Below are positions 4,533 to 62,791 of a stretch of DNA of 64,000 bases, piece after piece. Both the position numbers and the translations under genes were made by a program. Positions within the stretch are counted from its first letter, which is position 1. Every line of letters starts with the position of its first letter. The stretch covers positions 1 to 64,000 of the forward strand of contig JAHHHW010000033.1 in the NCBI GenBank assembly GCA_019359115.1, given 5' to 3'. The notes under the pieces are model-generated. The model was not told where the DNA came from. It saw nothing but the letters and a program-made list of their open reading frames with translations, and made no database searches. Source of the DNA: Pelatocladus maniniholoensis HA4357-MV3. GTDB taxonomy: Bacteria > Cyanobacteriota > Cyanobacteriia > Cyanobacteriales > Nostocaceae.

Positions 4533-4622
4533 TACTGGGGTACGTATTGGACACAACCGAGAACTGCTATACACGTCTACGCACTCTTCAAATTCGCATC
4601 GCTCACAAAAATTGTTTGTTTT

Positions 4623-4811
4623 CATCCATAGAGAACATCAAAGCGTTTGTTCAAAACGTTTCAACGTTGCTTATTGACGTTCTCTCATCCATAGAGAACA
4701 TCAAAGCGTTTGTTCAAAACGTTTCAACGTTGTTTATTAACGTTCTTTCATCCATAGAGAACATTAAAGCGTTTGTTCAAAACGTTTCAACGTTGTTTAT
4801 TAACGAGAACC
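4623..4811 (+). repeat. Three tandem copies of a 63-bp unit
   Basis: Units begin at 4623, 4686 and 4749 with CATCCATAGAGAACAT and are nearly identical (a few base changes). The period of 63 bp keeps a reading frame open: from a TTG at 4547 to 4858 the frame encodes three 21-residue repeats containing ENIKAFVQNVSTL. Two of the three 21-bp thirds of the unit (CGTTTGTTCAAAACGTTTCAA and CGTTGTTTATTAACGTTCTTT in unit 2) align with each other, so the unit may be built from 21-mers. No good start or ribosome site supports translation, and the frame runs into the next repeat, so I treat it as a minisatellite. Confidence 0.8.
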
Positions 4812-4839
4812 CATTCACAACAAACAAGAAAGAGCGCAT

Positions 4840-5070
4840 CTGTACCGCCTCGGAATAAATTCCAAGTCTCATAGCGCAAGTCCTCTTCAGAGGACTCAAA
4901 GAAAAGAAAAGTTTGTTCCAGTCCACTTGAGTGGACTTTCGCTATGAGCCTGGAACTTTAGTTCTAGGCGGGATACAGTTTCAACATGAAAAATTTTGAC
5001 TTGTGTGTACACCGTAGCCGTAAACGGAGAGGGTTAGGGTGGGGTAAAAATATTTTTGCAAGAGGTCTAA
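4840..5070. repeat. Cloverleaf-like dispersed repeat, copy A, with tail
   Basis: The core (4840-4978) folds as an outer stem CTGTACCGCC / GGCGGGATACAG (two-base bulge), a hairpin on CTCGGAATAAATTCCAAG, a long stem CTCATAGCG / CGCTATGAG that encloses two hairpins (AGTCCTCTTCAGAGGACT and AGTCCACTTGAGTGGACT), and a last hairpin CCTGGAACTTTAGTTCTAGG. A tail to 5070 contains TTGTGTGTACACCGTAG and TTTTGCAAGAGGTCTAATG. The palindromic GTGTACAC piece recurs beside copy B (11875-11891), and the second piece recurs at 113-126. The rest of 4214-5124 shows no other gene. Confidence 0.75.
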
Positions 5071-11528: not shown

Positions 11529-11907
11529 ATTTGGAACAAAAGTTTAGGGAAGGAAAAATAATTTTTCGGAGCAGTTAAAGATATATAGACGTTATATAGG
11601 GTGTTACTTTAACATCTTTATTGTCAAAATGTTCACCTGTGTGGTAGAGAATAATGTATTTTTCTTAGTGAAGTTGCTCCCGAATTTACCCCTCTGACGG
11701 GTGTAGGTTTTTTACACTTTGCCCAGAAAATACTGGTTTTAGGGTGTAGGGGTATAAGGGTGTAGGGGTGTAAGAATTTATGAAACGATGATTATTCCGT
11801 TAGTTTTACAGTCACCACTCATTGCTTTATTAAAAACCTACGTTTGTCAGAATTTACCCCTCCCTTTCGCACTACGGTGTACACACAAATCTTGGTGCAG
11901 TGTATTT
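11529..11907. other. Gene-free spacer with short tandem repeats
   Basis: No ORF is supported here. It contains an 8-bp GTGTAGGG-type tandem run (11737-11772) and, on the minus strand, TTGTGTGTACACCGTAG (11875-11891), the same tail motif found beside cloverleaf copy A. The promoter of the minus-strand gene starting at 11528 should lie in its first 150 bp, but I cannot place the boxes with confidence. Confidence 0.5.
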
Positions 11908-12035
11908 ATCCCGCCTCGGAATAAATTCCGAGTCTAATAGCGAAAGTCCTCTTCATAGGACTCATAGAGAAATTCGATTTAGTCCACTTGAGTGGACTTA
12001 AGCTATTAGCCTGGAACTTTAGTTCCAGGCGGGAT
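11908..12035. repeat. Cloverleaf-like dispersed repeat, copy B (best preserved)
   Basis: ATCCCGCC (11908-11915) pairs perfectly with GGCGGGAT (12028-12035). Inside, CTCGGAATAAATTCCGAG forms a hairpin, CTAATAGC pairs with GCTATTAG, that stem encloses AGTCCTCTTCATAGGACT and AGTCCACTTGAGTGGACT, and CCTGGAACTTTAGTTCCAGG forms the last hairpin. Both flanks resemble the tail of copy A. The element abuts, and seems to have cut off, the SDR gene to its right. Confidence 0.85.
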
Positions 12036-12041
12036 ATTGGT

Positions 12042-12344
12042 TCAGCTTGAAGATTTTCGACTCGTAGCCTTCGCCAAAATGTCCAGCTTCCCGAAGCGAT
12101 CGCGAATTTGTTGATCTGCGGTTGTGATGCTTGCAGAGTTGCTAACATCAAGCTTGATAAACTCAACATCAAGTCCTTCTGATTGTAGTTTATCCGCAGC
12201 TTCGGTTCCCTTTTGGGGATCGCGGGCTGCTAGCAAAACCAGAATTCCTTTTTGGGCAAGTTGACGACTGATTTCAAACCCTAATCCTTTGTTTGCACCA
12301 GTTACTAAGGCGATCGTCAGATCATGGATATTGTCAGTATTCAT
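12042..12344 (-). pseudogene. SDR oxidoreductase fragment, 3' end lost to a repeat
   Basis: The first 90 residues are a good short-chain dehydrogenase N-terminus: VTGANKGLGFE (NAD(P)-binding Gly motif), AARDP, and LDVSNSAS. The family next expects an NNAG motif after GKLDIL, but the sequence changes to KATSRKSSS and stops. The change falls at about 12078, where the DNA becomes a match to the tail of the cloverleaf repeat. The catalytic Tyr-x-x-x-Lys half is absent from the window, so the protein cannot be an active SDR. The upstream half still has an intact ATG start. Confidence 0.8.
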
Positions 12345-19228: not shown

Positions 19229-19326
19229 CTGTACCGCCTCGGAATAAATTCCGAGTCTCATAGCGCAAGTCCTCTTCAGAGGACTTGCGCTATGAGCCTG
19301 GAACTTTAGTTCTAGGCGGGATACAG
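19229..19326. repeat. Cloverleaf-like dispersed repeat, copy C (short form)
   Basis: This copy has the same outer stem and first and last hairpins as copy A, but the central stem is fused with its first hairpin into a single 18-bp perfect stem beginning TCATAGCGCAAGTCCTCT (19258-19275) and the second inner hairpin is missing. Flanks GAGCGCATCTG and ATACAGTTTCAAC match copy A, which places the element borders. It lies between bciB and the SDR gene and may end or process a bciB transcript. Confidence 0.8.
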
Positions 19327-23556: not shown

Positions 23557-23822
23557 CTTTGCCTTCCCTGTAGCAGCTTATGTCTTCCCTGTAACAACTT
23601 CCGCCTTCCTTGCAGCAACTTCTGCTTTCCCTGTAGCAACTTCCGCCTTCACGTTTGCGTGTTTCGCGCAGCCTGTAGCAGCTTCTGCCTTCCCTGTAGC
23701 AACTTCCGCCTTCACGTTTGCGTGTTTCGCGCAGCCTGTAGCAGCTTCTGCCTTCCCTGTAGCAACTTCCGCCTTCACGTTTGCGTGTTTCGCGCAGTCT
23801 GTAGCAGTTTCTGCCTTCACGT
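23557..23822. repeat. Minisatellite of 21-bp units in a 63-bp higher-order period
   Basis: The basic unit is CTTCCCTGTAGCAACTTCCGC (21 bp) and variants. Three successive variants, one carrying CACGTTTGCGTGTTTCGC, repeat together with a period of exactly 63 bp (landmark TTCACGTTTGCG at 23648, 23711 and 23774). All three frames on one strand and one frame on the other remain open because 21 is a multiple of three. It lies between the mutS stop and the CHAT gene. Confidence 0.85.
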
Positions 23823-52961: not shown

Positions 52962-53345
52962 GTTTGGTGTTGTATTTAAGCATAAAATGAGCAGTCACCT
53001 TTAATTACACCAGATATTCAAAGCCCTATTTATGCCGCAATTCTTGGGGAGTGTGAAAAACTCGGATGCACTGCGATCGCCATTGGTGGAATAGAAAATC
53101 ATGTACATCTCTTGACAGGTTTTCCCACAACCATAACAATATCTGATTTAATTAAACAAATCAAAGGTAGTTCTTCCCATTTAGTTACTTATGAAATCCA
53201 AGCAGGCAAATTTTTTAAATGGAAAGGTAGCTATGATGCTTTTACTATTAGCCATGATGGTATAGATAAAGTAGCAAACTACATTAAAAATCAACCAATT
53301 AATCATCAACAAAAACTCTCTGATTTCAACTTGGGAACTAAATAA
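52962..53345 (+). pseudogene. Decayed IS200/IS605 Y1 transposase
   Basis: From 52986 the frame encodes NEQSPLITPDIQSPIY, then GGIENHVHLL with the HUH metal motif (53100-53108), IKQIKGSSSH, and YDAFTISHDGIDKVANYI with the probable catalytic Tyr. These are hallmarks of IS200-type TnpA (REP-associated family). Upstream, the same frame reads VW, two stop codons (52977-52979 and 52983-52985), then joins, where the family has a VWATKNR motif; the true N-terminus is missing. An ATG-less later start (53112) alone would give 77 residues. The copy is not functional. Confidence 0.85.
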
Positions 53346-55699: not shown

Positions 55700-57439
55700 T
55701 CATCTTCTTTGCAATGGGTTAGACGTGCCATCAGTCGGTTGATTATCGGGATTTTGATTGGGAACAGGTATAAATGGAGTATTAGTAGGTGTTTCGGTGG
55801 GTGTTTCGGTGGGTGTTTCGGTGGGTGTTTCGGTGGGTGTTTCGGTGGGTGTTTCAGTAGGTATTTCGGTGGGTATTTCAGTGGGTGTTTCTGTTGGGGT
55901 TTCGGTGGGTGTAGGCTGAAGTGGGCTTTCTAATTGGATACTGAGGTTATAGTCGCTTTCAGTAATTCCTGGAGGTAGAGTTAAATCAATTGCATATCTA
56001 CCATTAACTGGTAATGTACCTTGATAGAAAGTAGCATTTTTAGCAGAGTTGTTAATTGGTTCTCTATCTGGGCCTAAAACTGTTAATACAACACCGCTTT
56101 CTTGTGTTAACAATGCAATTATATTTTGCCCTTGCCGACCTCGGAATGTGTATCGGATGATTTGATTGTCTGTGATTGTACCCTCAACTTGGGTGACACC
56201 AGATGTATCTAAAGTGAGGCGTCTACTGACAATTGTCGGCTCGCTTGTCGTGGGTGTAACTGTGGGTGTGGGTGAAGTTGTAGAACCGTCAGGAACTACT
56301 GGAGAAGGAAAAGTTTGTGTTGGTACTTCAGTTGGTTGTGCTGATGGTGTCCCGCGAATAGTACGCACCACCGCCCAAGAGCCGATTCCTGCTATACTCA
56401 CCACAGCAACAGTAATCAATCCAACTGCTAATGGATTATCCAAAAATGATTTACTGGCAGGTTCTGGAGTTGTGTTATTAGATGTATCATGCGTGGATGC
56501 TGATCCTGGATTAGGAGGGCGACCGACAGGGATTGTTTGTACGTTAGAGATTTTGGGGTTGGACGCAACTGGTATGGAGGCTGGAACTAGGGGTGTTTGT
56601 TGTCCTCCAGATGCTAATGCTTGTGCTACTTGGGTTGTATTTTGGAAGCGATCGCTCGGTCTAAAGCTCAACATCCGATTTAAAATCTGAGTCAAGTGTG
56701 GACTCACTACTACCCAGCGTTGCCAATTCCAAGTCAAGAGATTTTCATCAAATAATTCTTGAGGTTCTTTGCCACTCAGCAATACTATTGCTGTCACTGC
56801 TAGTGCATACAAATCACTGCTGGGGTAAGCTTGTCCTGTTTGCATTTGCTCACTGGGGGAATAACCCAATTTTCCGACATAAGTTGCTGGCACTGTCGGA
56901 TTAGCAGATTGTAATCTTGTCGCGAGTTCTTTTACCACCCCAAAATCGATTAATACAGGCTGATTGTCAAGATCACGCAAAATAATATTGTCTGGTGAGA
57001 TATCCCGGTGAATAATGCCTCGACTGTGAATATGTTCTAAGACTGGTAACAAAGAGCGCATCAAGTTTAACACTTCTTGTTCTGTGAATGCACTACCAAC
57101 AGCTTTACGCTCATCCAGCAACGTATAGTATGTTTTACCAGCTACATAGTCTTGCACCAAAAACAATCGTTGGTCTTGTTCAAATCTTTCCCGGAATTTT
57201 GGTATTTGCGGGTGTTCTATTTGATATAAAATATTTGCTTCTCTGAGGAAAAGCTCTTGTGCCTTTTGCCAAGCAATAGGATCTGTTGTGTTAGGAATTA
57301 ATTCTTTGATGGCACAAAGTTCGTTGAAGCGTCTCTGGTCTTCTGCCAGATAGGTTCTACCAAATCCCCCTTGACCCAGAATTTGAATAATTTGATAACG
57401 GTTTTGCAAAACAGTACCAGTTGAAATTGGTGGTTGCAT
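55700..57439 (-). CDS. Membrane Ser/Thr protein kinase with a Thr-rich repeat tail
   Basis: The N-terminal kinase has GQGGFGRTYLAED, the Lys of CAIKE, HRDISPDN (catalytic loop) and IDFGVVKE (DFG). A membrane helix follows near residue 335-352 (AVGLITVAVVSIAGIGSW). The extracytoplasmic part has a beta-rich domain (GTITDNQIIRYTFRGRQGQNI...), like the PPC-type modules of secreted proteins, and ends in about ten PTET/PTEI repeats and an Asn/Pro tail. It is a PknB-like sensor kinase of bacteria; the ligand and targets are unknown. Confidence 0.9.
   Translation of the reverse strand: MQPPISTGTVLQNRYQIIQILGQGGFGRTYLAEDQRRFNELCAIKELIPNTTDPIAWQKAQELFLREANILYQIEHPQIPKFRERFEQDQRLFLVQDYVAGKTYYTLLDERKAVGSAFTEQEVLNLMRSLLPVLEHIHSRGIIHRDISPDNIILRDLDNQPVLIDFGVVKELATRLQSANPTVPATYVGKLGYSPSEQMQTGQAYPSSDLYALAVTAIVLLSGKEPQELFDENLLTWNWQRWVVVSPHLTQILNRMLSFRPSDRFQNTTQVAQALASGGQQTPLVPASIPVASNPKISNVQTIPVGRPPNPGSASTHDTSNNTTPEPASKSFLDNPLAVGLITVAVVSIAGIGSWAVVRTIRGTPSAQPTEVPTQTFPSPVVPDGSTTSPTPTVTPTTSEPTIVSRRLTLDTSGVTQVEGTITDNQIIRYTFRGRQGQNIIALLTQESGVVLTVLGPDREPINNSAKNATFYQGTLPVNGRYAIDLTLPPGITESDYNLSIQLESPLQPTPTETPTETPTEIPTEIPTETPTETPTETPTETPTETPTETPTNTPFIPVPNQNPDNQPTDGTSNPLQRR
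55790..55915. repeat. 12-bp coding tandem repeat (PTET)
   Basis: GGTGTTTCGGTG-type 12-bp units repeat about ten times with few changes (GTA or GGG third positions; some ATT). On the minus strand each unit encodes Pro-Thr-Glu-Thr or Pro-Thr-Glu-Ile near the C-terminus of the kinase. Its near identity suggests recent slippage. Confidence 0.85.
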
Positions 57440-62117: not shown

Positions 62118-62228
62118 GGGATTGGGGATTGGGGAAATTTGAACTTCTAAAATCATATCTTGCATCAGCTTTTCATCCCGCCAATAAATAAATTTATTGG
62201 CTAATAGCTAAAGTCACAGTTTTCTCCT

Positions 62229-62516
62229 CCTAAAAATGAGCCGAGCCTTGCACAGCGCCCTAAAGGCGCTGTGCCACCACCGCGATCAATCACGGGGCTT
62301 GTTGAATAGGGAGCATCCCAATTTTTTCAAAATACCATAAAGCAAAGGGTTTAAACCCTTTGCTAATAGCGCAAGTCGTCTTCAGACGACTTCATAAAAT
62401 CAAACAGTCTGCTTCAGCAGAGTTTCACTATGAGACTGCGATTTCAATCGCAGGCGTTTTTTGAACATTTGGGATGCTCCCGTTGAATATATATAAAGGC
62501 TCGGCTCATTTTTAGG
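62229..62516. repeat. Element with perfect 21-bp terminal inverted repeats
   Basis: CCTAAAAATGAGCCGAGCC (start of left end, 62229-62249) and its exact reverse complement (62496-62516) delimit 288 bp. Next to the left end is a perfect 10-bp stem GCACAGCGCC-CTAAA-GGCGCTGTGC (62250-62274). No coding frame is present, so it is a MITE-like element. It sits inside cloverleaf copy D and itself contains a third element. Confidence 0.85.
62309..62481. repeat. Innermost MITE with 12-bp inverted ends and 7-bp target duplication
   Basis: GGGAGCATCCCA (62309-62320) and TGGGATGCTCCC (62470-62481) are exact inverted ends; GTTGAAT occurs immediately outside both (62301-62307 and 62482-62488; one extra A at 62308). 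Inside, the same cloverleaf-type layout appears with new arm sequences: GCAAAGGG/CCCTTTGC, AAGTCGTCTTCAGACGACTT, TCTGC/GCAGA and CTGCGATTTCAATCGCAG. No coding frame. Ends like this recur at 2299-2317 and in diverged form at 23854-23868. Confidence 0.85.
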
Positions 62517-62791
62517 TTCATTGAATCGAAGGTCAGATAAATCTGACTAGGACGATGTTTGAGTCCGTTTTAACGGACTTATGCTATTAGCCTCATTCCT
62601 TAATTCTGAGGCGGGATATGGGGTTGATGCAGGATATCAGTGAAGACGAAACTTAAACTTCGGAAGACGAAACTTGAACTTCGGAAGCTAAAGTCCAAAA
62701 TTATTTGACTTAAATCTTTGTGTCCTTTGTGTTCTTTATGGTTGTCAAATAGATATTCTCTGAGTGAGGAAAGACTGATTCACTCAAAATT

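Follow-up and report, generated by a model that had tools for sequence, protein, structure and literature searches.

The hairpin arrays that recur in a 64,000-nucleotide stretch of the Pelatocladus maniniholoensis HA4357-MV3 genome (the window) are, with a probability of about 0.7, MITEs that share a homologous core, the core having been passed between different ends and its arms having been kept self-complementary by template switching in hairpins. A first-pass annotation of the window had concluded from the maintained pairing that a cloverleaf is under selection, either as RNA or as a single-strand transposition substrate. This conclusion is not upheld, as covariation concentrates in local hairpins, with arms a few bases from each other, and the central stem behaves like shuffled controls. 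The arms probably stay matched mainly through DNA copying that turns back on its own hairpins and not through a preserved RNA fold.

The arrangement described in the first-pass annotation is present at all five places (4840, 11908, 19229, 62175, and 62309) when these are read directly: each copy consists of an outer stem, a hairpin (H1), an inverted CTAATAGC/GCTATTAG-type pair enclosing one or two hairpins (H2 and H3), and a final hairpin (H4). Some of the hairpins quoted there carry mismatches (H2 at 11908 reads AGTCCTCTTCATAGGACT and H3 at 62336 reads AGTCTGCTTCAGCAGAGT), and the copies are separate at 4840, 11908, and 19229 only, the copy at 62175 being one core (62172-62620) that is split by an insert containing the copy at 62309 (table 1). 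Four of the five stretches fold much more stably than dinucleotide shuffles (z of -7.1 to -11.7; -3.3 for the truncated piece on the left, 62172-62225). The lowest-energy fold is not always a cloverleaf: a single long imperfect hairpin is predicted at 4842-4979, and H2 pairs with H3 at 11905-12038. Searches with GCCTCGGAATAAATTCCRAGTC (up to 3 mismatches) and CTAATAGCNNAAGTC (up to 2 mismatches) returned 3 occurrences against 0 expected and 12 against 1.5 expected, respectively. The repeating unit is larger than the element first described and is not a free-standing cloverleaf. The window also holds tandem repeats (4620-4832, period 63 bp; 23560-23811, period 21 bp; 55752-55924, period 12 bp) and a Y1 transposase gene remnant that contains a stop codon (52980-53294).

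Table 1. Cores, MITEs, and associated features in the window (R1, covariance model of the core).
Feature	Position	Strand	Basis and remarks
Core, class A (H1, CTCATAGC, H2, spacer, H3, GCTATGAG, H4)	4841-4977	+	R1, direct reading; right arm and right inverted repeat to about 5017 (right end CTTGTGTGTACACCGTAG), left inverted repeat missing
MITE, class A	about 11872-12067	+	Left inverted repeat CTACGGTGTACACACAA at 11872 (match C33:11877-11897), right one degenerate (GACTCGTAG)
Core, class A, element of the first-pass annotation	11907-12038	+	R1, DNA search of the genome, folding
Core, class A, shortened	19230-19325	+	R1; a single inner hairpin in place of H2/H3 and spacer; flanks without visible inverted repeats
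Class B element, ends ATATCTTGCATCAGC ... GATGCAGGATAT	62155-62640 (right limit approximate)	.	Core 62172-62620 interrupted at about 62216-62527
Weak R1 pieces	62172-62304 and 62476-62620		R1
Insert inside the class B core, inverted ends CCTAAAAATGAGCCGAGCCTT / AAGGCTCGGCTCATTTTTAGG	62229-62516	.	Direct reading
MITE of 173 bp, class C, inverted repeats GGGAGCATCCCAA / TTGGGATGCTCCC	62309-62481	+	Duplication on both sides
Target duplication GTTGAATA	62301-62308 (left copy) and 62482-62489 (right copy)	.	Flanks the class C MITE
Core, class C (H1 AAGGGTTTAAACCCTT, H2 AGTCGTC.., H3 AGTCTGC.., H4 CTGCGATTTCAATCGCAG)	62336-62463	+	R1

The core is built from two inverted copies of CTNATAGCNNAAGTC and four short hairpins. 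Each of these half-sites runs into a hairpin that starts with AGTC and ends with GACT, and one further hairpin flanks each side, giving cores of 96-154 bp (median 128 bp) in the own genome. With up to 5 mismatches allowed, CTNATAGCNNAAGTC was identified in both halves of 79 out of 84 own cores and of 68 out of 79 cores from other genomes, the latter having been fetched with a pattern that fixes one half-site. Among the matches found at this threshold the half-site is conserved at 12 of its 15 positions (0.87-1.00). At the third base of CTNATAGC the two sides vary independently of each other, and the half-sites therefore look like sequence recognised by a protein rather than like the two strands of a stem. 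A recognising protein, encoded by the host or by the element, would be the natural guess for the persistence of CTNATAGCNNAAGTC.

The family extends far beyond the five copies from which its dispersal had been claimed, to at least 84 distinct places in the own genome. A genome search with a covariance model had been suggested as a check, and such a model built from ten sequences (R1) matched 148 of the 150 candidates that were scored out of 4416, which is a lower bound. Searching the own genome (6.7 Mb, 167 contigs) at the DNA level returned 70 matches with both strands counted. For the alignment of own cores, R1 was run on 93 sources (excluding L031-L045, L049, and L051-L108; L001 and L009 lie in the window) and the best 150 of 207 matches were reduced to the 84 places by removing opposite-strand duplicates. 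With the own genome counted in both sets, R1 matches were present in 28 out of 39 genomes of a set of relatives and in 45 out of 145 genomes (28 out of 88 genera) sampled across the class, where filters were strict and 23 candidates of each genome were scored. A degenerate pattern of half-site and hairpin identified at least 108 stretches, 106 of them from named cyanobacteria and two from one Chloroflexi MAG; 100 of the 108 pattern loci entered the alignment of other genomes, in which the best 150 of 237 matches correspond to 79 places. Together with L083-L107, some of whose genomes may repeat genomes already among the named loci, these places form a set of 104 other cores, three of which (L087, L097, and L105) were wrongly cut. 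Plasmid records yielded one partial match, in Nostoc sp. UHCC 0870 (E 3e-9, 52% covered, 81%), at a place where no feature is annotated; two other queries, among them the Anabaena sp. CRKS33 cores, had no match. A second hairpin array of like layout and a different central stem (GCTACACAAACAAAG / CTTTGTTTGTGTA) is located at L235:6368-6500, where R1 scores 57 bits, and may represent a sister family.

The homologous cores are located between six well-marked types of terminal inverted repeats and a weak seventh. Both ends of one named type were identified for 39 of the 84 own cores, a single end for 31, and no end for 14; the corresponding numbers among the 104 other cores, including the three that were wrongly cut, are 36, 26, and 42. 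Shuffled flanks gave at most one match per end type out of 168 or 208. Target duplications were scored as exact at a boundary fitted for each class as a whole, and on this scoring class C (mostly a 173-bp unit with GGGAGCATCCCAA ends) carries exact duplications in 15 out of 21 copies, 13 of 8 bp and two of 9 bp, the window copy at 62309-62481 included. Class A (unit of about 206 bp, ends CTACGGTGTACACACAA) has exact duplications of 10-11 bp in three of 12 copies and of 7 bp in one, at sites that are C-rich/G-rich palindromes. Exact duplications over 7-8 bp at the fitted boundary were found in five of 11 class D copies (ends CAGGGCTATTTCATTCT; 9-10 bp by eye) and in five of 13 class E copies (ends CATTGGTGTCAACTTAA; mostly 9 bp by eye), a 3-bp duplication in three of three class F copies (ends TAGACCTCTTGCAAAA), and a 9-bp duplication in one of the two loci that have CATTACCCACAT-type ends with up to 4 mismatches allowed (class G). 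No clear target duplication was seen in the 14 copies of class B (ATATCTTGCACC-type ends). The units that hold a core span 154-262 bp and combine features of MITEs, being short, non-coding, and present in many copies, with terminal inverted repeats and target-site duplications; because some cores lack one end or both, MITE status is demonstrated for part of the cores only.

Class A ends also enclose other interiors in the own genome (L031, 229 bp; L032, 332 bp; L034, 292 bp; L036, 131 bp; L038, 152 bp), and since such interiors of 131-332 bp are found between these ends, the core is dispensable for class A movement. Seven class A copies (L002, L008, L010, L013, L024, L026, and L028) have lost one end at a common internal point just before GTACCGCC, and L014 starts and stops exactly at GTAC; an alternative cut site in class A copies is possible.

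Two of the end types could be assigned to transposase families. The ends of class D are those of ISAs1-family elements (L347, L348, L350, and L352-L354; 0-2 mismatches over 17 bp at either end), the loci of which were fetched as NF033564 matches (E 3.6e-77 for the L347 protein), and the ends of class F are those of the IS5-family element L320 (one mismatch at each end; NF033581, E 2.1e-51). Judging by these ends, at least two transposase families that are unrelated to each other move, or formerly moved, homologous cores. An autonomous element with ends of class A, B, C, or E was not found in the loci and the single genome searched, nor one with class G ends in the subset of loci checked for that type. 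Lists of class A and C ends in genome G003, inspected by eye, contained no pair 0.6-3 kb apart without intervening ends. Longer end pairs among the fetched loci include those at 1550-2319 in the window, where part of a HAD hydrolase gene lies, at L202, which has no open frame of 60 amino acids inside, and at L005/L033/L061, L179, and L217. Chimeric copies join class C on the left to class A on the right (L146), a class C left end to a class B right end (L131), and class A sequence into a class B spacer (L007), which suggests that half-cores recombine. Several ISAs1 elements with class D ends are located, by eye, in palindromes of a C-run and a G-run, the same kind of target as that of class A MITEs.

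The nested arrangement at 62155-62640 consists of a class B element split by an insert that itself holds a class C MITE; class B cores without an interruption are present in L048, L112, L129, and L138. At the site corresponding to the 11907 core, genome G003 has an R1 match (144 bits) and the stretches from G001 and G002 have none; at the site of the class A core at 19230, G003 contains a class C core (109.6 bits), G002 a weak match (39.9 bits), and G001 none. Both spacers are rearranged and do not represent clean empty sites. A 100-residue remnant of a short-chain dehydrogenase (PF00106, 12042-12344) ends right beside the MITE in the window, and G003 has about 1 kb more between this remnant and the MITE, probably carrying more of the dehydrogenase gene; the genome of the window thus seems to have undergone a deletion next to the MITE. 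None of the 84 own cores is located inside an open frame, which carries little weight as the core itself holds stop codons. When the flanks of duplication-bearing copies were joined, 4 out of 18 lay in open frames of at least 100 codons (L019, L139, L110, and L128). The frames of L019 and L139 resemble repeats, and those of the class C MITEs L110 and L128 comprise 124 and 183 codons, the former matching a helix-turn-helix domain (PF01381, E 1.8e-9), so that these two MITEs appear, from the joined frames, to interrupt genes. The L110 gene was not found in G001-G003, and the outer flanks match in G001 and G003 without the gene.

The claim that the arms change while their pairing is kept was borne out, in far more copies than five. 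Hairpins of the form AGTC-N3-N4-N3-GACT beside a half-site have three perfect inner base pairs in 107 out of 128 cases in the own genome (8 arms) and in 208 out of 221 elsewhere (16 arms), and away from a recognised half-site in 6 out of 6 and 10 out of 19 cases, respectively (all counts halved, as both strands were scanned). A compensated share was calculated as the fraction of cells differing from the commonest pair that were changed on both sides and still pair, with all copies weighted alike and kinship ignored. This share is 0.73-0.76 for H1-H4 in 78 own sequences and 0.81-0.93 in 79 others, compared with 0.14 and 0.07 for the central stem and 0.20 and 0.27 for the outer stem. Shuffling the partners reduces pairing in the hairpins from 0.88-0.98 to 0.48-0.81, whereas pairing in the central stem matches that of shuffled columns (0.866 vs. 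0.855 in own copies, 0.856 vs. 0.852 in others). A weak covariation signal remains in the outer stem, where pairing exceeds all of 200 shuffles (0.666 against 0.57 after shuffling, with a maximum of 0.603, in own copies, and 0.652 against 0.52, with a maximum of 0.557, in others). Of the stems that would close the multiloop of a cloverleaf, the central one is thus indistinguishable from shuffles and the outer one only weakly above them, and because an alignment fitted to the structure of the model favours pairing, the deficit of the central stem is the more telling. What the data support is four hairpins plus a motif that is inverted and conserved in sequence; they do not establish a closed cloverleaf.

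The variation inside the hairpins points to polymerase template switching in DNA, of which loop inversions and arm replacement are signatures. Among class C copies, the loops of H2, H3, and H4 occur in both orientations, with all four combinations present for each of the pairs H2/H3, H2/H4, and H3/H4. The class A H2 loop is found in two orientations (12 vs. 7) in 19 copies of equal length whose other sites are 2.7% off the consensus; the H3 and H4 loops have a single orientation in 28 out of 28 class A copies, and no pair of class A loops displays all four combinations. In L025, L027, and L029 a stem arm has been replaced by the exact reverse complement of the left flank. An unrelated palindromic repeat of the same genomes (TCCCC..GGGGA) keeps its two outer inner pairs in 18 out of 18 contexts, with 3 and 2 pair types, and its loops are inverted as well. 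Template switching between inverted repeats is reported to homogenise arms and invert spacers (PMC8604942, yeast genes), and frequent palindrome-associated inversions are described for a plastid spacer (PMC2903610); the likeness to these systems lies in loop inversion and arm homogenisation, the difference in that a repeat family is affected here. Changes within classes are mostly one-sided: 15 one-arm changes and no genuine both-arm change in class A (one apparent case is a mis-assigned hairpin), 52 and about 5 in class C (13 counted, 8 of them mis-assigned), and 11 and 2, as counted, in class B. Homogenisation is accordingly incomplete in young copies, and one-sided arm changes are as in ageing, unselected copies.

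The following course of events would account for these observations. DDE transposases that recognise the ends would move the MITEs in trans, in keeping with the ends, duplications, and copy number, and the core would be passed between MITEs most likely by recombination in the conserved half-sites, a route for which the chimeric copies are the evidence. The four hairpins would form in DNA, and a polymerase meeting one of them would switch template to the opposite arm, inverting the loop and copying one arm onto the other, as the loop inversions and the one arm-copy event suggest. The arms would in this way drift in sequence and remain self-complementary without selection on the fold. A wider version, put forward tentatively, is that one conserved DNA chassis, read through inverted CTNATAGCNNAAGTC by a pan-cyanobacterial protein, has been adopted by MITEs of several unrelated transposase families (at least ISAs1 and IS5), with the interior instead of the ends as the heritable unit, self-templating hairpins, and covariation in the absence of fold selection.

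The strongest competitor, which is possible and clearly less probable than template switching, is selection on the DNA hairpins themselves, in which extruded or single-stranded hairpins would aid the movement or the tolerance of MITEs (through synapsis of the ends, as landing pads, or by protein docking) and pairing would be kept by both mutation and selection. The retention of the core throughout the phylum and between ends of different kinds is consistent with such a role, as are the 12 conserved half-site positions and an ISAs1-family element (L350:1218-2740) that is located precisely within the H4 hairpin of a core and is flanked by a palindromic 10-bp duplication. Against it, the class A copies L025, L027, and L029 have lost an arm of the central stem and nevertheless multiplied or were converted, and class A ends move interiors other than the core. 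Transcription of the core with selection on the fold of the RNA, which might act as a small RNA or stabilise 3′ ends, is improbable. The predicted folds are strong, as is the covariation in the four hairpins, to which the weak signal of the outer stem may be added, and 22 of the 57 classed copies are located between convergent genes compared with 6 between divergent genes (genes taken as open frames of at least 80 codons), a bias that is also as expected of insertions avoiding promoters. Non-canonical pairs lean toward G-T over A-C in class A (69 vs. 4), class B (14 vs. 5), and unclassified copies (61 vs. 20) and are even in class C (25 vs. 28), a comparison confounded by the choice of the copy strand by model score and by several class A pairs being fixed positions. 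The central stem lacks covariation, however, the orientation beside tandem genes is balanced (5 same and 6 opposite in class A, 4 and 4 in class C), and loop inversions are events of DNA. The Rfam search that had been proposed as a check returned nothing at the gathering score in the window and nothing over the core in nine loci at E 0.01, where the sole match was an unrelated psbN leader.

A folded single-strand substrate of the IS200/IS605 or RAYT (REPIN) type is very improbable. Symmetric hairpins in many copies, mostly outside genes, would fit such a substrate, but target duplications and long inverted ends are of the DDE type, and transposition is indicated by ordinary MITE features. The own genome contains three Y1 transposase genes, one of them with a stop codon, and none is located within 4 kb of the cores listed; GTAG or CGTC lies within 3 nt 5′ of H2/H3 in 4 out of 84 own and 0 out of 79 other cores (one strand). 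That unrelated palindromic inserts resemble each other by chance is hardly credible: the Russian-doll nesting at 62155-62640 and the differing ends speak for it, whereas both halves of most cores share CTNATAGCNNAAGTC and a scan of 60 control loci chosen for their transposase genes (204 kb) gave an R1 match only in L350, the ISAs1 locus with a core. Template switching in hairpins of a homologous MITE core remains the preferred reading.

Among the closest known systems are the type II MITEs of Anabaena sp. 90, 147 in number (PMC3542288): as described there, they span 77-541 bp, are mostly intergenic, break genes in some cases, have an RNAfold structure that contains three inverted-repeat sets, and carry ends unlike those of the insertion sequences of that genome. 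The part of that report used for comparison describes no single core across end kinds; the comparison is one of descriptions and the two sets may overlap. REP/REPIN sequences and their RAYT proteins (PMC3733652) are likewise dispersed hairpin repeats and are described from cyanobacteria (GTAG-12, -15, and -16); they follow a GTAG/CGTC tag rule, unlike the cores, whose inner hairpins show no such rule and which have DDE-type ends and duplications. A REP/REPIN (RAYT) identity was considered and is disfavoured, the tag being rare at the foot of H2/H3 on the strand read. Short mobile repeats of related organisms also include Nezha (Zhou et al. 2008) and the cyanobacterial small dispersed repeats of Elhai et al. 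(2008), both known here through their citation in PMC3733652 and PMC10969869. The core itself did not turn up among the papers that the literature searches listed.

The family bears on two general points. In the usual definition a MITE is recognised by its ends, and its interior is regarded as free to drift; in this family, elements with the ends of unrelated transposases share a homologous interior. The copies also offer a natural test of the extent to which covariation is proof of RNA structure: it is strong in the hairpins and lacking in the central stem, which would be needed to close the fold, and the loop inversions hint at the reason. Screens for new structured RNAs in cyanobacteria could be led astray by such elements.
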